A stretch of DNA of 64,000 nucleotides from Hyphomonas jannaschiana VP2 (GTDB lineage: Bacteria; Pseudomonadota; Alphaproteobacteria; Caulobacterales; Hyphomonadaceae), in the NCBI RefSeq assembly GCF_000685215.1, contig NZ_ARYJ01000007.1:62001-126000 (forward strand), in the 5' to 3' direction. Under the pieces are notes generated by a model, which did not search any database, was not told the origin of the DNA, and saw only the letters and a program-made list of their open reading frames with translations. Positions 33,884-49,095 of this stretch are shown here, piece by piece (the stretch's first letter is position 1; each line of letters opens with the position of its first letter). The position numbers and the translations under genes are program-made.

Positions 33884-34585
33884 ATGCGCGGGTCTAAAAG
33901 GCTGCGGACGATGTTGCAGGATTTCAAACCCTTCCCTGAATGTGGTCCCCCGGAGCGCGGCGCGGAGGGGGCGTGGTTCTGGCATTCCGCATCGGGGCCT
34001 GTGAACGAGGCCGTGCTCTCGGCTAATGAGAAAGCCCGCATTACACGCCTGATGTCGCCCGAAAAGCGGGCGCGGCTTGGCCATAGCCTGAGCCGCCGCC
34101 GCGAGCTCCTGTCCAGCCTTTTGGGGGCGCCTGCCACTGACATTGTCATCGCCCACAATCAGGCCGGAAGGCCCTTCCTGCCAGACTTTCCGGATGTCTC
34201 GGTCAGCTTTTCAGACAGCGGGGCGGCTAATGCCCTGGCCCTCGTGCGGTCGCGGCATGTCGGGGTGGATGTTGAAACAATCCGTCCAATTGGCTGGCAT
34301 GCCATGCTTCCCATGCTTTCGTCTGAGGATGAAGCCAGAGAGGTGCGCAACGCTGTCGAGGGCGCAGGGGGACTCGCCGCTTTCTTCTGCTGCTGGGCCG
34401 CCAAGGAGGCGATCCTGAAGGCGGCCGGAACGGGGCTGAAGGGCGGTGCACCAAGACTTCGCCTGCCTCAGGCGTTTATCTCAGGTCAGCAGGACCGGTT
34501 CAGTCTTGAGCACGATGGCCTGAGCCTGCGGGTGGAGCGTTTCCAGATCGGCGATCTGGTTCTCAGCCGTGCCACATCCGTCTAG
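33884..34585 (+). CDS. pfaE: Sfp-type phosphopantetheinyl transferase
   Basis: A 233-residue 4'-phosphopantetheinyl transferase. The magnesium and CoA-binding motifs are GVDVETI near residue 127 and the WAAKEAILKAAGTGLKGG helix near 167-184; a third conserved stretch is GRPFLPDFPDVSVSFS near 97. It would charge the two ACP domains of the facing PfaA, which is the function called PfaE in marine gene clusters. The start could also be ATG 33911, since neither has a clear Shine-Dalgarno. It is convergent with the PfaC-like gene and the two TAG stops share the palindrome CTAG (34582-34585). Confidence 0.88.
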   Translation: MRGSKRLRTMLQDFKPFPECGPPERGAEGAWFWHSASGPVNEAVLSANEKARITRLMSPEKRARLGHSLSRRRELLSSLLGAPATDIVIAHNQAGRPFLPDFPDVSVSFSDSGAANALALVRSRHVGVDVETIRPIGWHAMLPMLSSEDEAREVRNAVEGAGGLAAFFCCWAAKEAILKAAGTGLKGGAPRLRLPQAFISGQQDRFSLEHDGLSLRVERFQIGDLVLSRATSV

Positions 34586-37500
34586 CCAAGATCCTTCAGA
34601 GAAACACACATCGGTCCGACCTCGTAGACGCGTAGCCCATCCCGCCAGAGGCTGCCCCGGGCGGTGATCAGAATATCGTCTTCCCGGTCATCGATGCTCA
34701 GGATTTCCATCACGCTGGTGACTGTTTTGCGCTCCGGCGTGACCTGGCCACGATAGCTCCACTTCATGGGGGCATTCGGTGCCAACGTGGTGAGGTGCGG
34801 ATGGGTCATGCCTTTCTGCAGGCCCTTCTTCCAGACGAGCTGCGTCAGCGCCTGGACCAGCGCATCGAGCCCCAGGGATCCGGGCTGGACAGGATCCTGA
34901 TAGAAGTGCGCCTTGAAGTACCACGCATACGGATCGACATGTTGTTGCGCGCGGATCAGGCCAAGGCCCGCTTCGCCGCCATTCGGGTCGCAGAAATCAA
35001 CCTCGTCGATCATTTTCATCCGGCCGGAAGCGCGCGGCTCCTCCATGTCGATCTGGACCGGTGCCGGTCGCAGATCGAATGCCGATGTGAAGTGAGGTTT
35101 GGCCGGAAGGCCCGCCTGCCGCACAAGCGAGGCAGGCGGGAAGAAGCCAAATTGCGTCTTCAGGTCCAGAACCTTGCGGCCATCACCCGTGACCACGTCC
35201 ACATCAAACGACACAAGGGTCATCGGACCGACCTTGGCGATATTCGTCAGGGTGCTGCGGACCTTCAGCATACCGTCATGACGGCCCACTTCCATATGCA
35301 GGAAACCATCGCCCTCGAGGTTGCGGAACCGCAGGGTGCCAACAAGCGCAAAGCCGGAATGGCTGGCGAGCCAGCCGCATGGCTGAAGCGCAATCTCGCA
35401 CAGAACAGCAAACGGCATTGTGCCATTGACGTTGTCGTCGAAATACCAGGCATCTGCCGGTATGTCGTATTCCGCGGTCATCGTCGCGCCGAGCGTTTCT
35501 TCGGCCGGGCGTGTGGTGACGGACGTCACCCGCGAGATGAAATGGTAAGGCGGCTGGGGCAGGCGCGGTACGTTGCCCTGATCGTCGTAGCGGCGGTACA
35601 TGTCACCGAAGGCTGCGGAGGGGGCGCCGTTTGCACAGTCCAGCAAGGCGGCCTGGTCGCCACGGCTTTCCCGCTCTGGGCCGATCAGGAGCGGCTTGGC
35701 GTCGACCCGCGGAGCCGGCCAGTTGCGGCGCATGCGGATGCCGAACCGCGGGCAGTGGAAGACCTTGTGCCCATCGCAGCGCGCCAGAAGGGAGGCGTAT
35801 ATTTCCGGTGTCTCACCATCGATGATTTCATCGATGAAGACTTCATACGTTACATCATGATCCTTGTCCGGAATAACCTGTCCCCGGCAAACGAACTTCG
35901 CCGTGTGTCCCGGAATGGGTTCAAACACATATCCATCCCGTTCAACCGTAAGGCCCACAGCCGCCGCATAGAACTCCAGAGTCTGAACTGCTGCTTCCGC
36001 CATCAGTGTGCCGGGCATGCAGGGATCTTTGTGGAAGTGGCCGTCATAGAACCAGCTGTTTGCAGGCGTTGCTGCCCGCGCGCGGAGGTAACCCCGTTTC
36101 CAGGGCCCGCCCTGTGGATCGAAGGCGATCACCTCGTCGAATAGGGCAAGTTTTCCGTCAGGAATATGAGGGGGATTGGAATGGGCCGCGCAAAGCTCGA
36201 AGCCTTTGCCGAAACAGGCAAAGGCGTCGCCCTCGCGGAACGCGCTGACATCTGCAGCCGAGAATTTACGTTTCTGGCTGACGCGCTGTGGGGTAAATTC
36301 GACCGGCGTGGCGGTCGGGGGCGCGTCCCTGGTTGCGTCCCAGATCACGCCTTTGCTGTTGGCGAGTTCTTCATCCGTGAAAAAGCCTGCTTGCCCATTG
36401 CGCACCGAGAAGGCGAGCCGGCTGGCTGCGTAACAGTCATACTGGAAGAAAAACATCCGGACCCCGGCAAGCTCGGCGTGGCCGGTGATTTCGATCTGGA
36501 ATTTCAGCGTGTCTTCCTCGGAAGGGAGGCCGCCCTCGTGGAAGGTGATTTCGCACCCGAGCAGGCGGTAGACACGCTCATCCCTGTTTTGCAGGTCAGC
36601 GCCCATCCAGCCAATCAGGGTCAGGTCTGCCTGGCCGCATTCGATCAGCGGCCCGGGGCGCACGCGTCCATCATGGACAAAGTCTTTGTGCCCGGAGAGG
36701 TCGGTTTCGGTCCAGATGGTCCCGGCGGCGTCTTCCCGGGGTGCCGCATCGATTCCGGTGATCCGGTCGACGAGCAGCAGCGGGGGAGCGGGCAGCCGGA
36801 CCTGCCGCTCGAAACCGTCCTGGGCGGAAAAATCCGGCCCGAAGAATTCCGACATCTTGCCACGGGTCGACGCCTCAATCGCCTTTCGGTCGCGCACCGG
36901 GCCGCTGGGCGAACGTGGCTTGAGCGGCGTCGTACCGCTCGTCACTTTGCGCGGCGGTTCGAGACATTTGTGCGGTTCGGAGGCTTTCCCCGGTGCGGCC
37001 GGGATCATGACCTGGTCCGCTATAGTCATGGCATAGTCCGGTATGCGCAGCCTGGGCGCATGAGGAAGAACGTTCTGGACAGGCTCTGGCGGGGCTTCGG
37101 CGATCTTGGGCATGGGGTAAGGTACCGGTCTGGTGACGTTCCATTTGCGGCGCGGAACGGTCTCGTTTTTCCTGGCTGCAGCGAGGGTTTCAAGCAGTGG
37201 CTTCAGGTCAATTTCGCGGCCATCGGCGTAGAGAAAGGCCGCGGCGTGGGCGATCTGGCCGAGATCGGATGCTTCGATCCGGTCTGTCGCAATAGCCTTA
37301 AAAGGCTTATCTTTCAGTGTCTTGGAGAGACTCGAGGTTAAGGTGTCCCGCGGGCCGAGCTCCAGGAAGGTCCGCACGCCATCCTTCCAGGCCTGACGGA
37401 CTGTCTTTGGGAAGTCGACCGTATCCACTGCCTGCCGCGTCAGCATATCCGCGACCCGATCCGTCTCAGGCTCGTAAGCAGCGTGTATGGCATTGGCATA

Positions 37501-40500
37501 GAGCCGCACACCAGAGCCCCGGTGCACCTCCCGCGTGTGCAGCCGCCGCCACGTATCGGCAAATGGCCGCATGGCTCTGGCATGCACGATCAGGTGCTGG
37601 TTCATCTTTACGCCGGCCTGTTTGCCGAATTCATCACAAAGCTGCTTGCAGGCGTCTGCGGGGCCACCGATCATGCAGTCGTCATCTGTGTAGATGATGG
37701 TGATCTCAACGCCGGGGTGCCGTACGAGCGCTTGTTTGATCTGATCGACTGGCGCCTGCAGTCGCCAGTTGGTCCAGTCTGACGGGACATTCGGGCCCCA
37801 GGCCTGTTTCGCGGTTTCGAACTCGCCGCCGATATGCCGCTCATACATCGCGGCTTTGGAGATTTCATCCAGCAGCGCGCCGGGGTCTTTCCAGTATCCA
37901 AATGAAAACAGTGCGTTGGACTCTCCCAATGAGAGGCCGATCGCGGCGTCAGGCTTCACCTTCAGCAGCTCAAGCCACAGGGTCGAGTGTGCCTGACTTA
38001 CCAGCGTACCGGCGCACAATTGCTCGAATTCGGTGAGGTTCGACCGAGACAGCAGGGCGGCAATCTCCTCCGCCCGGGACAATTTGGAGAGCGCTTTCCG
38101 GATCTCTGGAAATGCCATCAACAAGCGTCTTGCCATGCGCGGATACACGGCCGCAGAGCCGGTAAACATGAATGCCAGCTCACCCGCAGCTTCTCCTTCA
38201 CCGAAGTAGATGCCTTCTCCAGAAGGGGGCTGGCCTTCCGCGAGCGATTGCGCGGCGGAGGCGCGCAGCTTGTCGAGGTCGTCCGCATCGTGCGCGATTA
38301 GGGCAATCCGGCAGGCGCCCCGACCACCGTCCCGGCCGGCTTTCAATGCAGCGGCAAGTTTCCTCCGGCTGGCAGCGGCGGCGTGAAACATGAATGGCGT
38401 CGGCCGGAGTGGATCGGGCATGACCTGAGGTGGCTCAAGCGTAAATGAAACCGATGCACCGGCATTCGCCAGATCAGCCGCGACGGACATCTGTCGCTTT
38501 CTGCGTTTCAGGGAGAGTGCCGGAACGGCGCCAGACTCCATTAGCTTGTGGCTGTGAGCGTTCAGCAGACACTCCAGCGCGATCTGCACAAGAGGTGCGG
38601 CATCAGGGGCCTGGCCGTAGGTCTTGCGGAATAGATCCGTTTCCGGGCGGCCTTTTCTGCTCTTCCAGTCGACCGGGCTGATACTGGCAAGGATCGGATC
38701 TCCAGCCGCTTCAGCATCCTCGCGCCGCTTAAGAACAAGGGCGGCTGACGCGTCAGCGGGATGATCCACGCAAAACAGCTCAGCCAGCGCACGAGCACGA
38801 ACCGGTTCAGTCGCGAAATCCGCAACGGTCACAATGGCGGTAGACAGACGTCTGGTGGTCAGTGCATCCATCGCAAGGTCGAGCGCTGCCAATGCGCTGG
38901 CGGGACCAGCTGAAACGGAGAAGCCCATCCCGTGGATGTCCCGCGCGAACGTAATTCTGTTTGCCGTCATATTGGCCATAGCGCCCAGGACGGCGGCGGC
39001 ATCAAGCTGGGGCGCAACCTCGTCTGGCGACTGCGCCGGATTGGCTTTGGAGCGTTCTCTCAATGCCCAGCGCGCAGAGTCTGCCGCACAGGTCATACCG
39101 GCAAAAACGCCTGTTTCTTCAGCCTCATGGGAACTGATGCGACCAAGGGCTTCGCAGACAGAGGATAGAATGGCGAGTTGCTGCGGTTCTGCCTTAGCAA
39201 GGTCTTTGGGCGGTGAGCGGGCATAAACCGCATTGGCACCAATTTCCTCCAGCTTTTCCGGCGCTTTGATGGGATGGTTCATCAGGCGTCTGAGAACATT
39301 GTCTGTGGTGCAATCGCTGCCAGCCATCACGGATGCGGCGCAGATGACAATCTCCGGAGAAGGGGACGTCTTGATGACCCGGCTGCGGCTCTTCCGCGTG
39401 GCCGCTCGGTGCTCTTCCAGAATGAGGTGAGCATTGTTCCCACCAAACCCAAAATTACTGATGGCAGCTCGGCGCGGCTCTCCGGAATTTTTCCAGTTCT
39501 GCGCGGCGGTTGGAACGTCCATGGCGCTGTTTTGTACTGAATCCAGCAGCTCACCACTCAGAGGCGTAGGCGGTATGCGTTCCTCATTCATGGCTCCGGT
39601 AAGCTTCAGCACGCTGGCAAGGCCGGCAACAGTGATAAGATGGCCGGTATTGGCTTTAAGAGAGCCTAGAAGCAGATGATCAAGGTCTTTGTAGACGGAT
39701 GTGACCGACGAGATCTCAACGCCATCGCCGACTGCTGTACCTGTCGCGTGGCACTCTATATATTGGACAGAATGCGGATCTATTGCGCTGTCTTGCAGGG
39801 CCTTTTGCATCGCACTAGCCTGACCTTCCGCCGCAGGGGCAAGCAGGCCTTTGCGCCGCCCGTCATTGGACAAGCCACTGCCGCGGATTACGCCGTAGAC
39901 TTTTTCCCCGGCCTCCACATCTTTCAGGCGCTTCAGCACAAGGGCTGCGGCTCCTTCTGAGGGTACAAGTCCGTCCGCGCCTCTAACGAACGGGCGGGAT
40001 TGCCCCGTAGGGCTGAGCGCGTTCAGCGCCTCAAAGCCGATATGGAGGATCAGGTTGTCTGCCGCGTTAACGCCGGCGACGACGGCACAGTCGATCTGCC
40101 GGGCACCAAGTTTTCTGCAGGCAATATCGATGGCGTACAGAGACGATGCGCAGGCGGCGTCCAGCGAAAGACATGGGCCCGTGGCACGAAGTGATTCCGC
40201 GATCAGCTTGGCGGGCAGCGCAGAATTGAGAACAGAATGGGCTGGCGGCGTTTCTTCGTGTTTCCAGAACTGAGAAGCGAACGCGACATGACCTGCAGAG
40301 GGGTATGAGAGGTTCGCGACAAAAACACCGAGTGCGGACGGCCGTACTTTTGGACGACTAGCGTTATCCCATGCGTCGAGCGTGGCTTTTAGCGGCCAGC
40401 TGCAGACAGGGTCCAGCTCATTTGGATTGACGGATTTCAGCTTTGCCTGTCCAGGGTCGAAAATCTGATCGAACCTGCAAATGCGCCCGGATACATATGA

Positions 40501-40662
40501 GCGACCCTTGGCTGCATTTCCGCGCAGGCCTAACTCCTCAGGGCTGACCGGGCCATAGACGACCCTATTTTCCATAATCAGACGGGTGAGTTCTTCAGGT
40601 GTATTGGCGCCAGGCAGAACGCACCCCTGTCCGACGATGGCGACAGGCTCGAATGAATTCAT
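34582..40662 (-). CDS. pfaC: PfaC-like synthase: KS-CLF-AT-DH-DH
   Basis: A 2026-residue multidomain synthase. Domains: ketosynthase 1-430 (active Cys171 in DAACASS, His305 in HATGT, His341 in NTGH); chain-length-factor-like KS 435-745, where the cysteine is missing (FSVSAGPASA); acyltransferase about 825-1150 with nucleophile Ser911 in GLSLGES; then four hot-dog halves making two FabA-like dehydratases, with GHFHKDPCMPGTLMAEA and AHFYQDPVQPGSLGLDA as the best active-site copies and two degenerate ones. An AT between CLF and DH is absent from Shewanella PfaC but resembles a PfaB-like AT fused in, as I recall for myxobacterial Pfa3. ATG 40662 overlaps the ketoreductase stop (TAATG). Confidence 0.92.
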   Translation of the reverse strand: MNSFEPVAIVGQGCVLPGANTPEELTRLIMENRVVYGPVSPEELGLRGNAAKGRSYVSGRICRFDQIFDPGQAKLKSVNPNELDPVCSWPLKATLDAWDNASRPKVRPSALGVFVANLSYPSAGHVAFASQFWKHEETPPAHSVLNSALPAKLIAESLRATGPCLSLDAACASSLYAIDIACRKLGARQIDCAVVAGVNAADNLILHIGFEALNALSPTGQSRPFVRGADGLVPSEGAAALVLKRLKDVEAGEKVYGVIRGSGLSNDGRRKGLLAPAAEGQASAMQKALQDSAIDPHSVQYIECHATGTAVGDGVEISSVTSVYKDLDHLLLGSLKANTGHLITVAGLASVLKLTGAMNEERIPPTPLSGELLDSVQNSAMDVPTAAQNWKNSGEPRRAAISNFGFGGNNAHLILEEHRAATRKSRSRVIKTSPSPEIVICAASVMAGSDCTTDNVLRRLMNHPIKAPEKLEEIGANAVYARSPPKDLAKAEPQQLAILSSVCEALGRISSHEAEETGVFAGMTCAADSARWALRERSKANPAQSPDEVAPQLDAAAVLGAMANMTANRITFARDIHGMGFSVSAGPASALAALDLAMDALTTRRLSTAIVTVADFATEPVRARALAELFCVDHPADASAALVLKRREDAEAAGDPILASISPVDWKSRKGRPETDLFRKTYGQAPDAAPLVQIALECLLNAHSHKLMESGAVPALSLKRRKRQMSVAADLANAGASVSFTLEPPQVMPDPLRPTPFMFHAAAASRRKLAAALKAGRDGGRGACRIALIAHDADDLDKLRASAAQSLAEGQPPSGEGIYFGEGEAAGELAFMFTGSAAVYPRMARRLLMAFPEIRKALSKLSRAEEIAALLSRSNLTEFEQLCAGTLVSQAHSTLWLELLKVKPDAAIGLSLGESNALFSFGYWKDPGALLDEISKAAMYERHIGGEFETAKQAWGPNVPSDWTNWRLQAPVDQIKQALVRHPGVEITIIYTDDDCMIGGPADACKQLCDEFGKQAGVKMNQHLIVHARAMRPFADTWRRLHTREVHRGSGVRLYANAIHAAYEPETDRVADMLTRQAVDTVDFPKTVRQAWKDGVRTFLELGPRDTLTSSLSKTLKDKPFKAIATDRIEASDLGQIAHAAAFLYADGREIDLKPLLETLAAARKNETVPRRKWNVTRPVPYPMPKIAEAPPEPVQNVLPHAPRLRIPDYAMTIADQVMIPAAPGKASEPHKCLEPPRKVTSGTTPLKPRSPSGPVRDRKAIEASTRGKMSEFFGPDFSAQDGFERQVRLPAPPLLLVDRITGIDAAPREDAAGTIWTETDLSGHKDFVHDGRVRPGPLIECGQADLTLIGWMGADLQNRDERVYRLLGCEITFHEGGLPSEEDTLKFQIEITGHAELAGVRMFFFQYDCYAASRLAFSVRNGQAGFFTDEELANSKGVIWDATRDAPPTATPVEFTPQRVSQKRKFSAADVSAFREGDAFACFGKGFELCAAHSNPPHIPDGKLALFDEVIAFDPQGGPWKRGYLRARAATPANSWFYDGHFHKDPCMPGTLMAEAAVQTLEFYAAAVGLTVERDGYVFEPIPGHTAKFVCRGQVIPDKDHDVTYEVFIDEIIDGETPEIYASLLARCDGHKVFHCPRFGIRMRRNWPAPRVDAKPLLIGPERESRGDQAALLDCANGAPSAAFGDMYRRYDDQGNVPRLPQPPYHFISRVTSVTTRPAEETLGATMTAEYDIPADAWYFDDNVNGTMPFAVLCEIALQPCGWLASHSGFALVGTLRFRNLEGDGFLHMEVGRHDGMLKVRSTLTNIAKVGPMTLVSFDVDVVTGDGRKVLDLKTQFGFFPPASLVRQAGLPAKPHFTSAFDLRPAPVQIDMEEPRASGRMKMIDEVDFCDPNGGEAGLGLIRAQQHVDPYAWYFKAHFYQDPVQPGSLGLDALVQALTQLVWKKGLQKGMTHPHLTTLAPNAPMKWSYRGQVTPERKTVTSVMEILSIDDREDDILITARGSLWRDGLRVYEVGPMCVSLKDLG

Positions 40663-42038
40663 TACTCGCCCCAATCGTCGCCAACCACAAAACGGATCTG
40701 GTCATGTGGGGATTGGAGTAGCTGGTCAGCAAATATTCTTGCCCCGTCGGCTTTACCGATGAGGCCGATCCCGCGTTCGGCAAACATGCGGGCCAGTGCT
40801 TCGTCGACCATGCCGCCTTGCCATGGCCCCCAGCAGAAAGCTTTCACCTGAGTAGCCGGTAGCTCGCCCGCCAAGTGCAGGGCAACATTGTTGAGCCATT
40901 CATTGGCCGCCGCATAATTCGCCTGTCCCTCATTTCCAAATACGGCCGATGCGGATGAAAACAGGGCGATATGAGATAATGAGTTCACATCCAATGATGC
41001 CAATATGTTTTCCAGTCCTGAGACTTTTGGGCCAAACACCCTTTGGAAGTCTTCCGGACGTAGAGATTCAGCCGTTCCGTCTGCCAGAACACCCGCGCCG
41101 TGGACGAGCCCGGTTATCCGGCCCTGTTCATTCTGGATGTCTTGAAGGGCTGTGTGTAGTTGGTTGGCATCGCCAATATCCGCCTGAATGTACCGGGCTT
41201 TGGCGCCCGCTTGTTCAATGGACGCGATCGTGTTGGAGATTTCCAAACTCGCCAGAAGGCGACGGGCATATTTGTCTATCTCCATCGGTTTTCTGGGCAT
41301 TCCAGGCTGGCCGCTATTGCGCGCAAGCAATCCGCGAAGGGTTTTCAAGTCTCTTTCGAGCGGGAGCCATTCAGGCCAGGGGGTGACGTCGGATCGTCCA
41401 AGAAGAATAAATGTGCCACCCGTTCGTCTGGCGAGCTCTGCCGTGCAGTCTGCCGTTACCCCCCGGCCGCCGCCGGAGACGAGCCAGATGGGTTTGAAAT
41501 CAGACTGTTGCTCGGGGGGTGCAGGGGACAAGTGATCCTCACCCAGAACATCCTGATATATTCCGTTACGTTGGACCGAATAGTCTCCATTGGGAAGAGA
41601 CAGCGCCTGTATGACTTTGGACGCTACGGAGCCTGGGTTTGTATCTTGTGCGATGGATATGGAGTAGGCCTCAGCGTCCGGACGCTCTTGCCTGAGAGAT
41701 CGAACCATTCCGGCCGCACCTCCGATTTCCGCTAGAACGGGTGAAGAGGTGCGGCTCAACAGGATTGTTTTTACTCCTGTTTGAACGGCAAGAACCGCTT
41801 TCAGCGCGCGATAGTGCCGTTCAGCCGGCTCTATCTGTGAGAGCCCCTCAGTTAGAATAAGTGTCCCGCTTCCTTCTGGCTCATCAATTATGCGGCCAGC
41901 GCCACCTGAAGACTCAATTTCTGTCAGGAGTGCTTTGGCGTATTCAGGCGCCGCATTAGTAATCGAGACCGGACCGAAGCTCTCAAGAGAGGCTATCGCT
42001 TCGTATGATGCCACTAGAACGGAGCTCAGAACGCGCAC
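40662..42038 (-). CDS. Ketoreductase reading frame, PfaA C-terminal part
   Basis: A ketoreductase of the type that ends PfaA. Counting from GTG 42038 (458 residues), the truncated structural subdomain runs to about 170, the NADPH loop is SGGGRGVT near 188-195, and the catalytic Ser/Tyr lie in LFSSASAVFGNEGQANY (Tyr375), with Lys338 in GPKVSG. No convincing independent start exists: GTG 42038 has no Shine-Dalgarno within range, the nearest AGAGG being 22 bases upstream. The frame is open back through the linker to the T7 run at the end of PfaA, so it is probably the frameshifted C-terminal part of PfaA rather than a free-standing protein. Confidence 0.8.
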   Translation of the reverse strand: MRVLSSVLVASYEAIASLESFGPVSITNAAPEYAKALLTEIESSGGAGRIIDEPEGSGTLILTEGLSQIEPAERHYRALKAVLAVQTGVKTILLSRTSSPVLAEIGGAAGMVRSLRQERPDAEAYSISIAQDTNPGSVASKVIQALSLPNGDYSVQRNGIYQDVLGEDHLSPAPPEQQSDFKPIWLVSGGGRGVTADCTAELARRTGGTFILLGRSDVTPWPEWLPLERDLKTLRGLLARNSGQPGMPRKPMEIDKYARRLLASLEISNTIASIEQAGAKARYIQADIGDANQLHTALQDIQNEQGRITGLVHGAGVLADGTAESLRPEDFQRVFGPKVSGLENILASLDVNSLSHIALFSSASAVFGNEGQANYAAANEWLNNVALHLAGELPATQVKAFCWGPWQGGMVDEALARMFAERGIGLIGKADGARIFADQLLQSPHDQIRFVVGDDWGE

Positions 42039-42077
42039 GGAATTCGTGTACGGTGTGTTACCTCTATCTGTCCCAGA

Positions 42078-42122
42078 GGGACGGATCGCCGTTTCTTGCG
42101 TTCCGCCCCTTAGGCAAAAAAA
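42078..42122 (-). promoter_or_regulatory. Candidate -1 ribosomal frameshift site joining PfaA and KR
   Basis: On the coding strand the last PfaA codons are GAT TTT TTT GCC TAA, so T TTT TTT is a slippery heptamer in the correct phase (42122-42116). After a 6-base spacer, GGGGCGGA (42109-42102) can pair with TCCGTCCC (42085-42078) across a 16-base loop, eight pairs including one G-U. A -1 slip leads into the open ketoreductase frame with a 26-codon linker. No upstream Shine-Dalgarno-like stimulator is visible. An uncalled eighth T would produce the same fusion. Confidence 0.55.
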
Positions 42123-45100
42123 TCAGCGATCTTTCTGATTGTGCGCAGTTCCACGAGAACTTCCGGATCGACTTCCGGCAAGTCGGGGTGCTGTTCACGA
42201 AGAGCAGAAAGAATTTCCACTTGCTTGATGGAGTCAACGCCAAGTTCACCTTCCAGGTCCATGTCGTCTTCCAGCATATCGCTGGGGTATCCTGTTTTGT
42301 CAGCAATCAGATCTCTGACGACATCAGTGGTGATGCCAGTGCTTGCTAAGCCGGCAGTCGGAGTTGCCTGAGGCGTCGCAGACGCAAGTTGAGGGGCGGA
42401 TTTGCTCGCAGGTGCAGACGTAGACGCACCTTCTGCGCCCGCGATCATCTCGGCGATTGCAGAAATGGTTCGCAACTCGACGAGACGCTCCGGATCGATC
42501 TCAGGCAGGTCGGGAATTTCTTCACGGAGCGTCGACAGGATCTCCACCTGTTTGATCGAGTCGACACCCAGTTCACCTTCCAGGTCCATATCGGCATCGA
42601 GCATGTCTTCCGGATAACCGGTTTTGTCTGCAATGATGGTTCGCACGAGACTGACAGCGTCGAACTGTTCAGCTTTTACGGCTTCTGGCGATTGATGCGG
42701 TGTTGCTTCTGTCTTTGGTGTGGTGGGGACTGGCCGCGTCGTTACTGGAGGCGTAACGGGAGCAACCGCCCGTTCTGCAGGTGGTGTCGGAACGGGACGT
42801 CGGGCGGGCGCAACAGGCGCCGTAGCGGGTTCTACCTGACGAGGCTGCGGCGCATGGCTGGCAGAAGGCTCAGGCAGTGCTTTGACCGGTTCGCTCTGTA
42901 CGGCACCTGCGCCACCCATGACTTGCGCAACTGTGTTCAGATAAGCTGCGTGGGCGGATGAGGCGACTTTCAGGAAATCTGCATGGCGGCGCGAGACTTC
43001 CATCATGACGCGTTCGGCCGGAGTTTCGCCTGCAGAGCCTGAAGGCTCATAGGATGGAATGGACGGGAACGAGGAATAAGATGAATCCGGCATGGCTGGT
43101 TCCTGAGGGCTTGGGGCAGAGAAGGAATGAGAGGATCTGGGTTTGGTCGGAGCGGCTTGGGGATGCTTCGTTTCCGGCCTTGGTGTGATCGGCGAAAGTG
43201 GTGTTTCAGGATTGGGGGCGGCGCGACCCGAAGCGCCTTCCGGCGGCGGATAGGGCTTTCCGTAATTTGCGCCTGAGATCATCACCGCGTGTTTTGGCGG
43301 AGCCGGTCTTGGCGGCTCGGCAGGCAGCTCATCAAACAAGCTGGCAAAATCAATCGCCACGCCGCACACGGAAAGTGCACCAAGCGTTGACAAAAACTGG
43401 GTCACGCCATTTACGCGCTTGTTGTCGAGTGAATAAGCGGTATGCGGCCTTGAACCTAGAACGTCATCCACGAGACCTGTGACGATAGCCCCGGGACCGA
43501 CTTCAATAAATATCCTCGCACCGTCACTGTACATTTGCTCAACCAGTTCCCGGAAACGGACTGGGGATTCCAGCTGGCTCGCAATTTCCGCCGGTAACTG
43601 AGCGGCGGTACATGAGTACGGTTCAGCCGTGGCATTGGCGTAAACAGGCAAACTTGGCTTGCGTGGACGGAGTTTCGTGAGCGCGGCTTCGAATGGCTTC
43701 ACTGCCGAAGCGACGATCTTTGAATGAAATGCCGTCGCGACGGGCAGGGCGCGGGCCTTGAGAGCCTGCTGTCCGCAGACTTCGATTGCTTTACGAATGA
43801 TTTCTGATGGACCAGAAAGGACGATCTGGCTGGGCCCGTTGTCATTGGCGAGTACAAGATCCGGGTGAAAGTGTTCCAGCAGATGTCCGACGTCCTCGGC
43901 GGCAGCCTGGACAGCCATCATGGAGCCTGCAGTAGAGTTGGCTGCTTCCGCCATCAGCGCGCCGCGATCAACAGCTGCAGTCAGCGCGTTCGCCAGGTTG
44001 AACGTGCCTCCATAGTGCAAGGCCATGATCTCGCCGAAACTGTGCCCGGCCGTCATGTCGGCCCTGATACCAGCTAGCTCAAGCAGGGAAAGTTGGGCCA
44101 GGGCGACAGCGGCAATAGCGGGCTGCGCGTGTTCCATGGCTTTCAGGCGATCAGTCTGGTCGCCATGCTCAACCTGATCGAATGCAGCGGGCGGAAAAGC
44201 TAAACGGTGAAGCTTTAAATCCCCAGCACGTTTGTGCCCCGCGGCCTGGTCCCAGACAGAGCGGGCCGCCGGAAAGCCCATTGCAAGGTCGGATCCCATT
44301 CCGACATACTGGCTGCCTTGCCCGGAGAACATGAAGGCGACTTTTCCGTCAGTGGGCGGATCCAGAGAGACGTGGCAGCCCATCTTGAGGGGGCGTTTGC
44401 CGATCTCGCCACGCCTGAGTGCTTCCACAACAGAGGAGGCCTTTTCGGAAAAGTCTTGAGGGGAGCATCCGGTAATTGCGGCGCGAGCAGGGGCTGAGCG
44501 ATCAAAAGCATCTTGTGATTGTGAGGCCCTGAAGGCGAATTCGCTTTCTGTTGTGGGGGGTAAAGCGTCTTCGATTTGTACCGCAAGTGCTTCAGGTGAA
44601 TCTGCTGAGAAGAGGAACAGTTCCGATGGCAGAGAACGCCAGGGCTTTATCGCGTTCGGACCTGTATATTCCTCCAGCGTGACATGGAAATTACTTCCAC
44701 CGAACCCGAAAGAGCTGACGGACGCCCGGCGCGGGCGTTTCTTGGGAGAGATCCAGGGGCGGGCTTCTGTATTGAGGTAGAAGACGGGACTATTTTTGAT
44801 CGCGTCGGCGGGCTCTTCGACTTTTATTGTCGGAGGCAACACTTTGCGACTGAGTGCGTGAGTCACCTTGATCAGACTGGCGGACCCGGCGGCTGCCTTG
44901 GTATGGCCAATTTGCGCTTTGACAGAGCCGACGGCGCACCATGGCTCATCCGTTTGATATTCGCCGAATGCGAGATGCAGGCCTTCAATTTCGGCTTTAT
45001 CGCCGGCCTTGGTTCCGGTGCCATGTGCTTCGACCAGGTCGACTGTAGAAGGATTGTATCCGGCCTGTTCATATGCGCGTTGCAGGGCGCGTGCCTGGCC

Positions 45101-46051
45101 GTGGGGAACAGGGCTGTAAATAGCCGTTCCCTTTCCGTCGGATGCGCCGCCCAGCCCCTTGATGACAGCGTAAATATGGTTGCCGTCGCGCTCGGCATCA
45201 TCCAGCCGGCGCAGCGCGAGCATGCCTACGCCTTCACCAAGCATCGTGCCGTCCGCGCGCGTCGAAAACGGGCGGCAGTCTCCTGATGTTGATAGGGCAG
45301 GTGTTTTCGAGAAACACATATACATCAGGATGTCGTTTAGCGCGTCCACACCGCCGGTCAGGACGGTGTCACTGTCCCCGGACCGGAGTTCATGCAAGGC
45401 AATCTGAAGCGCCGAAAGACTTGAGGCACAGGCCGCGTCGGTGACATAGTTACTGCCTGTCAGATCAAACCTGTTTGCAATCCGTCCTGCAATCACGTTG
45501 CCGAGTAGGCCAGGAAAGGTTGCTTCCTGCCAGCCGACATAGTGATCTTCGATCCGGGCTGCGATGTCCTGAACCTGACTCTCGGCAAGACCGGCTTGCC
45601 GCATCGCGTTCACCCAAGCGGGCCGCTGCAACCGGCCAGCCATGTGAGCCGTCATTTCGGTCGCCGAAGCAACGCCCAGGATGATGCTTGTTCGCGACTT
45701 GTCGATCATGCCGCCGGAGTCGCGCTCGATGTCTTCCAGAGTCATCTGAGCCGCGATCAGTGCGAGAAGTTGAGCGGTGTCGGTTCCCTCCATGGCTTTG
45801 GGGGGAATCCCGAAATAGAGGGGATCGAATGCCAACGGATCAATAAACCCCCCTCGACGGCCATATGTACGATCCTTTGTCTTCGGATCTTCGTCGTAAT
45901 AGTCGTCGATCAGCCAATGCGTTGGCGGAACATCCCTGATGAGGTCGCTGCCTTCAAACAGGTCCCGCCAGAAGCCGGTTACATCGCCCCGGCCGGGGAA
46001 GACGGCTCCCAGGCCGACAATTGCAATCGGAGCCGCGTTTGGTTTAGCCAT
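42110..46051 (-). CDS. pfaA: PfaA-like synthase: KS-AT-ACP-ACP
   Basis: A 1313-residue synthase. Ketosynthase 1-465 has Cys208 in DAACASS, His343 in EAHGTGT and His383 in QIGHTKAAAG. The malonyl/acyltransferase runs about 565-870 with GQGSQ and nucleophile Ser671 in GHSFGE. A long Pro/Ser/Ala-rich linker (about 945-1115) leads to two ACPs with ELGVDSIKQVEIL, phosphopantetheine serines near 1165 and 1274. Known PfaA proteins continue into a ketoreductase; this one stops right after ACP2 at TAA 42112, next to a slippery T7. Only two ACPs is few for the family. Its ATG shares a base with the pfaD stop (TGATG). Confidence 0.93.
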   Translation of the reverse strand: MAKPNAAPIAIVGLGAVFPGRGDVTGFWRDLFEGSDLIRDVPPTHWLIDDYYDEDPKTKDRTYGRRGGFIDPLAFDPLYFGIPPKAMEGTDTAQLLALIAAQMTLEDIERDSGGMIDKSRTSIILGVASATEMTAHMAGRLQRPAWVNAMRQAGLAESQVQDIAARIEDHYVGWQEATFPGLLGNVIAGRIANRFDLTGSNYVTDAACASSLSALQIALHELRSGDSDTVLTGGVDALNDILMYMCFSKTPALSTSGDCRPFSTRADGTMLGEGVGMLALRRLDDAERDGNHIYAVIKGLGGASDGKGTAIYSPVPHGQARALQRAYEQAGYNPSTVDLVEAHGTGTKAGDKAEIEGLHLAFGEYQTDEPWCAVGSVKAQIGHTKAAAGSASLIKVTHALSRKVLPPTIKVEEPADAIKNSPVFYLNTEARPWISPKKRPRRASVSSFGFGGSNFHVTLEEYTGPNAIKPWRSLPSELFLFSADSPEALAVQIEDALPPTTESEFAFRASQSQDAFDRSAPARAAITGCSPQDFSEKASSVVEALRRGEIGKRPLKMGCHVSLDPPTDGKVAFMFSGQGSQYVGMGSDLAMGFPAARSVWDQAAGHKRAGDLKLHRLAFPPAAFDQVEHGDQTDRLKAMEHAQPAIAAVALAQLSLLELAGIRADMTAGHSFGEIMALHYGGTFNLANALTAAVDRGALMAEAANSTAGSMMAVQAAAEDVGHLLEHFHPDLVLANDNGPSQIVLSGPSEIIRKAIEVCGQQALKARALPVATAFHSKIVASAVKPFEAALTKLRPRKPSLPVYANATAEPYSCTAAQLPAEIASQLESPVRFRELVEQMYSDGARIFIEVGPGAIVTGLVDDVLGSRPHTAYSLDNKRVNGVTQFLSTLGALSVCGVAIDFASLFDELPAEPPRPAPPKHAVMISGANYGKPYPPPEGASGRAAPNPETPLSPITPRPETKHPQAAPTKPRSSHSFSAPSPQEPAMPDSSYSSFPSIPSYEPSGSAGETPAERVMMEVSRRHADFLKVASSAHAAYLNTVAQVMGGAGAVQSEPVKALPEPSASHAPQPRQVEPATAPVAPARRPVPTPPAERAVAPVTPPVTTRPVPTTPKTEATPHQSPEAVKAEQFDAVSLVRTIIADKTGYPEDMLDADMDLEGELGVDSIKQVEILSTLREEIPDLPEIDPERLVELRTISAIAEMIAGAEGASTSAPASKSAPQLASATPQATPTAGLASTGITTDVVRDLIADKTGYPSDMLEDDMDLEGELGVDSIKQVEILSALREQHPDLPEVDPEVLVELRTIRKIADFFA

Positions 46052-48117: not shown

Positions 48118-48927
48118 TCAGCTGCCTGCCGTCATGGCTCCATCAACAACCAGCTCCTGACCGTTGATGTAGCTGGATTTATCCGATGCGAGATAGACGA
48201 TCAGGTCCGCAACTTCATCCGGTCGTCCAGGGCGTCCCATAGGTGATGCCTGCGCGCCAAGCGTGTCAGCATCCAGCGCATTCGCACCGGCCGGAACGTC
48301 CGGAATTACCGGCATGCCTTCGCCAAGGCGGGTGATGGATTTCTGCCAGATGGGCGTATCGATGATACCCGGATGCACGGAGTTTACGCGGATCGGCCAG
48401 CCCGCGCGGGCGCACTCCACTGCAGCAGCTTTGGAAAACAGGCGTACGGCGCCTTTGGAAGTGCAATAAGCGCTTAGGCCGGCTGCACCCCGAAGGCCTG
48501 CGACCGATGAAATATTGATGATGGACCCGCCGCTTTCCTGCATTTTCCGGATAGCCGCGCGTGTGCCGAGGAAGACACTGTCGACGTTTACCGACATCTG
48601 GGTCTTCCAGTCATCAAGTGAAAACTCGGGGATGGCGCCGCCGATCGCAATGCCTGCATTGTTCACCAGAATGGAAGGGCGGCCGAGCTTTGCTTCAGCT
48701 TGCTCCATCACCTCATCCCACAGCGCCTCTTCAGTCACATCCTGTTTGAGCGTTTCGATCTTGCCGCCCGCGGCCTTGATTGTATCGGCGGTGAGCTTGA
48801 GGCCGTCCTCATCTATGTCGGTTGCGAAGACAGATGCGCCTTCTTTTGCCATCGCTTCTGCTGCAGCCCGGCCGATGCCGCTTCCCGCGCCGGTGATCAC
48901 AGCCACGCGGCCATCCAGTAAACCCAT
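48118..48927 (-). CDS. Short-chain dehydrogenase/reductase
   Basis: A 269-residue classical SDR. The start ATG 48927 has a textbook GGGAGGAA upstream; the longer open frame to 49083 is not SDR-like. The Rossmann loop is TGAGSGIGRA near residue 14, then DI-type cofactor acid ATDIDE near 39, NNAG near 90, the catalytic Ser in ISSVAG and YCTSK near 155. An acidic residue at the end of beta 2 favours NAD. The substrate cannot be told; its neighbourhood to the Pfa cluster may be accidental, since it has its own start and promoter. Confidence 0.9.
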   Translation of the reverse strand: MGLLDGRVAVITGAGSGIGRAAAEAMAKEGASVFATDIDEDGLKLTADTIKAAGGKIETLKQDVTEEALWDEVMEQAEAKLGRPSILVNNAGIAIGGAIPEFSLDDWKTQMSVNVDSVFLGTRAAIRKMQESGGSIINISSVAGLRGAAGLSAYCTSKGAVRLFSKAAAVECARAGWPIRVNSVHPGIIDTPIWQKSITRLGEGMPVIPDVPAGANALDADTLGAQASPMGRPGRPDEVADLIVYLASDKSSYINGQELVVDGAMTAGS

Positions 48928-49095
48928 GATTTCCTCCCATGTTATTTCGGGTAGCTGTAGCAGGTACGCCGCTTGACGGAAGAGCCAGTTTGGTGTTTTA
49001 CCCGCCGCTTCATAACGGGATGGTGCGGAGCCGCCGTTGAAATCGTGGGCAGGATGAGCTTGCCCACCGGTCCGCGTCGACATTGAGGTACTACC

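Follow-up and report, generated by a model that had tools for sequence, protein, structure and literature searches.

A probable programmed -1 frameshift between the ACP and ketoreductase parts of pfaA in Hyphomonadaceae

The ACP part and the ketoreductase (KR) part of PfaA are encoded in two different frames in Hyphomonas jannaschiana VP2, and it is very probable that programmed -1 ribosomal frameshifting joins them, giving a short (1313 aa) and a long (1796 aa) PfaA, although no expression or proteomic data are available. Slippage in the cell is inferred. With Phe-tRNAs paired to T TTT TTY in both the P and the A site, ribosomes would pause at a hairpin six bases ahead, and some would slip back one base, with both tRNAs re-pairing to TTT, and read on through KR to yield the predicted long KS-MAT-ACP2-KR product (190.7 kDa). 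The ribosomes that do not slip would read one more codon and then the stop, yielding the predicted short KS-MAT-ACP2 product (139.3 kDa). The existence of the two PfaA sizes, their ratio and its purpose are likewise inferred; the purpose may be to restrict how many KR domains there are per ACP in a PUFA-synthase-like complex. Slippage probably sets how many PfaA copies carry KR.

Frameshift signal and gene layout at the pfaA/KR junction

The 3' end of pfaA reads GAT TTT TTT GCC TAA (Table 1). A sequence-only reading of the window, which is the whole 64,000-nucleotide stretch of DNA analysed here, had proposed an in-phase T TTT TTT, a 6-base spacer and a potential stem, and each of these elements was found in its place on the minus strand. 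In the predicted hairpin, GGGGCGGA pairs with TCCGTCCC and three inner pairs are added, with an energy of -19.2 kcal/mol (z -4.5); none of 200 shuffles was as stable. RNA structure located 5–8 nt downstream is the reported spacing rule for -1 frameshifting (PMC4066793), and the 6 nt between heptamer and hairpin meet it.

Table 1. Features of the pfa operon and of the pfaA/KR junction, in positions of the window
Feature	Position	Strand	Basis or remark
pfaA zero-frame ORF, 1313 aa, KS-MAT-ACP-ACP (short PfaA)	42110..46051	-	ketoacyl-synt, Acyl_transf_1, PP-binding x2; TIGR02813
Open KR frame entered by the -1 slip, adding 484 residues	40662..42122	-	N-terminal half and catalytic KR
pfaBC: two KS-type stretches, weak acyltransferase, FabA-like dehydratases	34582..40662	-	domain matches
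pfaD-like enoyl reductase, upstream of pfaA	46051..47595	-	TIGR02814
Phosphopantetheinyl transferase, probable pfaE	33884..34585	+	strand opposite to operon
Slippery heptamer T_TTT_TTT, in phase, tandem Phe codons	42116..42122	-	
Zero-frame stop TAA, one codon (GCC) past heptamer	42110..42112	-	
Predicted stimulatory hairpin, start 6 nt past heptamer	42078..42109	-	

The string T6Y-NNN-TRR-GGGVYG has a single occurrence in the Hyphomonas jannaschiana VP2 genome. Across 105 genomes of the family it occurs 60 times, of which 55 are at the pfaA/KR junction and five elsewhere. The junction signal is not attributable to chance, since this count is far from that of a reversed control string, which occurs seven times over the same 105 genomes. 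An Rfam search of positions 41900–42400 returned no known RNA family up to E 1. The stretch upstream of the heptamer often reads ATCCGGAAGATCGCC and is variable (judged by eye only), and an upstream SD-like stimulator is not clearly present.

The expectation that a -1 shift would lead into a complete KR was borne out, as the frame stays open from 42122 to 40662, over 486 codons, and carries a Pfam KR match (E 5.5e-33); its best NCBIfam match is the KR part of TIGR02813 (positions 2000–2267). When both frames are taken together, the KS, MAT, ACP and KR domains stand in order. The short PfaA and the KR frame alone score 982.5 and 234.6 against TIGR02813, for which the cut-off is 1010.1 (the joined protein was not scanned). 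The GG.RGVT, SS and YA.AN positions, which we take to be the cofactor and catalytic motifs of KR, are invariant across 18 aligned KR sequences; the solved relatives of KR that were listed added nothing on the frameshift question. The flanking junctions are indeed as tight as had been remarked, with a one-base stop/start overlap, TGATG, between pfaD and pfaA and a one-base overlap, TAATG, between KR and pfaBC, the ATG of pfaBC overlapping the KR stop.

A complete cycle by a PUFA-synthase-like complex seems to need the KR frame, because no KR was found by Pfam in the zero frame of pfaA, in pfaBC or in pfaD. A separate short-chain dehydrogenase gene lies near the operon (48118–49083, minus strand). 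It could supply ketoreductase activity in trans, as could a general FabG.

Conservation of the junction across the Hyphomonadaceae

In an initial set of 61 genomes, comprising the genome itself, 36 of the same genus and 24 from other families of the order, KR was found at E 1e-20 in 35, every one in the genus Hyphomonas. At E 1e-30, KR was found in 57 of 105 Hyphomonadaceae genomes, distributed over three of ten genera, and the junction could be read in 55 of these, G015 and G098 being cut by contig ends. The junctions were located through a motif search near the end of the ACP frame, and no genome with the region available failed to show the motif. All 55 display an in-phase heptamer, one variable codon, a stop and then GGG. 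The heptamer is T_TTT_TTT in 38 and T_TTT_TTC in 17, and the codon ahead of it is GAT in 53, the others being GGT in G112 and AAT in G065. The first Phe codon is TTT at every junction (55/55); in the flanking pfaA and KR sequence, TTT makes up 286 of 1082 Phe codons (26%). The -1 frame runs into KR in 54/55, including G011 and G075, in which it is cut later by a contig end. The sequence-only reading had called for a check of the T run in relatives, and none of the 55 readable junctions carries eight Ts or a fused gene.

The stop is TGA at 21 junctions, TAG at 19 and TAA at 15. On a KR tree of 52 rows (G003, G011 and G075 were dropped from the tree and from the slip-site distance measures), the stop type changed at least 10 times and always remained a stop, and the last base of the heptamer changed at least three times. 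Measured from the slip site, one conserved KR column lies at ten different distances, from 78 to 94 codons, with at least 15 changes, and a column near codon 23 lies at five, with at least five changes; KR is kept in -1 throughout. Changes in KR length (at least 16) were also considered as evidence of a kept phase and were dropped, because the C-terminal part contributes to them. That a stop is present at every junction, whatever its type, suggests a need for the short product as well; were fused PfaA alone required, an in-frame fusion would suffice, as at loci outside the Hyphomonadaceae.

In the minimum-energy folds, the hairpin begins at the base directly after the stop, 6 nt past the heptamer, in 55/55. 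The mean z is -3.5, and z lies below -2 in 53/55, the two exceptions being G033 (z -1.58) and G003, Hyphomonas sp. L-53-1-40 (z -0.43). Pairs were counted in 46 of the 55 sequences, after G003 and eight duplicate junctions had been removed. The seven pairs of the outer helix are formed in 95.0% of the cells of this pair table, compared with 55–65% when the helix is slid, and 12 of the 46 distinct sequences cannot form the outer pair at columns 20/42. With seven inner pairs added, 80.1% of cells are paired, compared with 51–61% when slid. The covariation score is 0.240 for the outer helix, against 0.183 (sd 0.013) in shuffles, none of 500 reaching it, and 0.281 against 0.173 with the inner pairs. 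Pairs changed on both sides do not stand out (66 and 43 of 500 shuffles as high), nor do further pair types (66 and 253 of 500). Cells changed on both sides number 5 in the outer helix, against 10 at slide -2, and 56 with the inner helix included, against 55 at slide +1. As several covariation measures do not stand out and the shuffles ignore the relatedness of the sequences, the pairing percentage and the per-genome folds are the stronger structural evidence. Signal, spacing, stop and hairpin, proposed for a single genome, are all kept over three genera; the signal, its conservation, the retention of the stop and the position of KR in -1 are matters of observation.

The exception is Hyphomonas sp. 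L-53-1-40 (loci L021/L040), in which heptamer and stop are kept, a 32-nt gap relative to G026 cuts the hairpin, and KR is still open, in frame zero behind the stop and not in -1. The gap may be real or an assembly fault. Notably, the sole genome without the -1 phase of KR also lacks a significant hairpin (z -0.43). Two loci whose records are titled Candidatus Sulfopaludibacter and Acidobacteria, L043 and L044, carry the Hyphomonadaceae junction; these titles look wrong for the bins.

Probable ribosomal slippage and its alternatives

The Phe tRNA is able to re-pair from ZZN to ZZZ on TTY. Re-pairing of this kind by the A-site tRNA is reported for the most efficient bacterial motifs (PMC4066793). 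A heptamer and a constant direction conserved among orthologues constitute a criterion for frameshifting (PMC3711429), and the junction meets this and some other criteria for the -1 type, with an in-phase X_XXY_YYZ heptamer in 55/55, a -1 frame that extends into conserved coding sequence in 54/55, and direction and heptamer conserved among orthologues.

Slippage might instead take place at transcription, with RNA polymerase dropping one U or adding two in the T run and thereby joining the frames in some mRNAs. Bacteria are known to show slippage of this class, 38 of the 55 junctions have a T7 homopolymer, and relatives in SAR324 carry A9–A11 at the same junction. Transcriptional slippage is nevertheless improbable as the explanation of the Hyphomonadaceae junction. 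In 17/55 only six Ts precede a C, an arrangement that keeps the heptamer shifty and shortens the homopolymer. Transcriptional realignment is reported for T runs above eight or A runs above seven (PMC3711429), and selection against runs becomes visible at nine in many genomes (PMC1088944); the T6 and T7 of Hyphomonadaceae fall below the length for realignment, which the 23 split SAR324 cases (A9–A11) meet. The direction is -1 in 54/55, and the fixed 6-nt spacer with a hairpin is a ribosomal layout. The run of only six or seven Ts, the constant direction, the spacer and the hairpin therefore favour ribosomal over transcriptional slippage. Genes of E. coli contain T7 less often than expected in each of the three frames, for which transcriptional slippage is one possible reason (PMC4066793), and a small transcriptional share in Hyphomonadaceae is for that reason not excluded.

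It is also conceivable that KR is a separate gene with a start of its own, used by coupled re-initiation after the pfaA stop, and split KR genes are described in other pfa clusters, such as type D (PMC3098273). The claim that the KR frame lacks a credible start held up on closer inspection. Its first ATG, GTG or TTG codons are GTG at codons 26 (42038) and 34, and the nearest AGAGG ahead of GTG 42038 lies 22 bases upstream. Among the first 75 KR codons of 54 of the 55 genomes (G003 left out), such codons are scattered, no start position is conserved, and three genomes have none at all. A GTG at codon 26 or 27 occurs in 22/54, within a Val-Arg motif common to most of the alignment, and five of these have a 3-base GAG or GGA upstream. 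A 4-base SD-like match precedes some start in 7/52 genomes, at scattered places (codons 5, 40, 44, 49, 59 or 63). Some separate initiation cannot be excluded on account of these two sets of genomes. The substitutions at codon positions 1/2/3 number 28/14/41 in KR codons 13–25, ahead of GTG 42038 (15 disjoint near pairs), and 7/12/14 in hairpin codons 2–12, the latter without a clear pattern. The third-position excess in codons 13–25 fits translation of this stretch, which is supporting and not decisive, because some genomes carry ATG at codon 16. A separate KR start would leave the TTT bias, the fixed stop, the hairpin and the kept phase unexplained, and we regard it as more doubtful still than transcriptional slippage.

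A one-base sequencing or assembly error in the error-prone T run, which had been put forward as the alternative, is refuted by the identical arrangement at 55 readable junctions of different genomes, and a decaying gene, against which the invariance of the KR motifs over the 18 aligned sequences speaks, can be set aside with it.

The junction in other lineages and in known systems

The phylum SAR324 was searched in 52 genomes, of which 30 have a KR match. In 23 of the 30, the ACP frame ends near an A9–A11 run and the -1 frame opens into KR (L160–L162, L170–L180, L183–L189, L191, L195). This -1 frame has 795–853 codons in 22/23; in G540 it has only 213, the remaining KR lying in another frame. 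The A run ends 2–4 bases ahead of the stop in 17/23 and 8–33 bases away in 6/23, and the downstream folds range from -6.5 to -24.2 kcal/mol (no shuffle comparison). In five further genomes the last ACP motif and KR share one frame, which extends over 2403 aa in G545 and 2465 aa in G565. In G547, G567 and G564 only 155, 67 and 7 codons separate the opening of the frame from the last ACP motif, so that a break may lie further upstream. Four of these five have A10–A12 in the linker, and the remaining two of the 30 have no ACP motif in the available sequence. Runs of at least nine A belong to a class known for transcriptional slippage (PMC1088944). These results suggest that recoding arose independently in SAR324 at the same junction, perhaps at transcription; this case is less tested than that of the Hyphomonadaceae, and its independence is inferred without a tree of the two arrangements.

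A survey of the class covered 385 genomes, with at most four candidates scored per genome, and found a KR match in at least eight, namely two Hyphomonas and six others. For all six matches outside the Hyphomonadaceae the open frame measures 1512 to 6714 aa (junctions not read). Among public loci, the best 80 KR loci of a longer list were considered. KR and an ACP motif share one frame in 48 of these best 80, after removal of eight Hyphomonadaceae loci whose match starts in the ACP frame, and in 10 of the 48 the linker contains at least seven consecutive A (or T6C) at some point. Ten of the best 80 belong to Hyphomonadaceae. The remaining 22 of the best 80 comprise 12 with an A run of at least seven within 15 codons of the ACP-frame stop, five split without such a run and five without an ACP motif in reach.

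Recoding as a conserved group trait in cyanobacteria and Chloroflexota was considered and is not supported by the survey tables (junctions not inspected). A KR match was found in 24 of 146 cyanobacterial genomes, and 11 of 12 near-full-length matches lie in frames of 2234–2397 aa, G510 being the only split one. In many further matches the catalytic KR half has a frame to itself, which is a different arrangement from the Hyphomonadaceae junction. In several cyanobacteria (G510, G572, G586, G591, G635, G692 and others) the N-terminal KR half lies in a frame of approximately 1676–1862 aa, apart from the frame of the catalytic half, and a stop sometimes interrupts the match. In Chloroflexota, 7 of 251 genomes have a match. 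The starting genome, G514, is split, G926 has a 2853-aa frame with one TGA inside the match, G945 has a 1477-aa frame, and in G958, G934, G773 and G736 the catalytic part lies in frames of 581–784 aa. Single loci have an A run of at least seven close to where the ACP frame ends and part of KR in a different frame, namely L058, L081 and L105 in cyanobacteria, L066, L084 and L094 in Chloroflexota and L078 in Phycisphaerae. The A runs of these loci could be linkers, errors or recoding.

A broader proposal is that recoding recurs at the ACP-KR junction of PfaA-type synthases, with ribosomal -1 slippage on T_TTT_TTY and a hairpin in Hyphomonadaceae and, in SAR324 and perhaps single cyanobacteria, Chloroflexota and planctomycetes, A7–A11 runs subject probably to transcriptional slippage. 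Each gene would then give PfaA with and without KR, the complex needing fewer KR than ACP-bearing subunits or the ratio tuning the product. We consider the chances of this proposal to be evenly balanced. If SAR324 did acquire recoding at this junction independently, that would speak for selection on KR dosage. If frameshifting at pfaA is real, ordinary gene finders would annotate the pfaA and KR frames as two genes, and KR may be missing when the annotated genes are expressed in another host. The stoichiometry of KR in iterative synthases would also become open to genetic test, since products should differ between mutants locked in the fused form and those locked in the short form.

Searches of open-licence literature, which leaves out most subscription papers, returned no report that links frameshifting to pfaA, to a PUFA synthase or to a KS/KR megasynthase. 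Within this scope, no described case was found of programmed frameshifting that determines which domains a PUFA or polyketide megasynthase contains. A term search of the main text of PMC3711429 gave no PfaA or KS/KR cluster, the GeneTack cluster list of its Figure 3 not being covered. The pfaA/KR junction is very probably recoding of a known kind, in a gene class where none was found described, with a testable role in KR dosage.

The fused PfaA of TIGR02813 (Shewanella, Psychromonas and others) has the same domain order, KS-MAT-ACPn-KR, and the same place of KR, but its KR is in frame with the ACPs, as in the 48 one-frame loci among the best 80. In split pfaA of type D, KR is likewise encoded apart from KS-AT-ACP5, and types D and H both have a fused pfaBC; in contrast to the pfaA studied here, type D is described as two genes and type H simply as split pfaA (PMC3098273). 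Two-part genes joined by frameshifting that GeneTack found, such as magnesium chelatase, also have fused homologues elsewhere, and a -1 shift restores the fusion, whereas A runs of 7, 9 and 11 are present in the magnesium chelatase cassettes that were tested (PMC3711429). With dnaX (A_AAA_AAG and a hairpin), pfaA shares the in-phase shifty heptamer, the short spacer, the hairpin and, by prediction, two products of one mRNA with a common N-terminus (PMC3711429). It differs from dnaX in its U-type heptamer and in the lack of a clear upstream SD-like stimulator, and also in that the shifted product of pfaA would be the longer one and would gain an enzyme domain.
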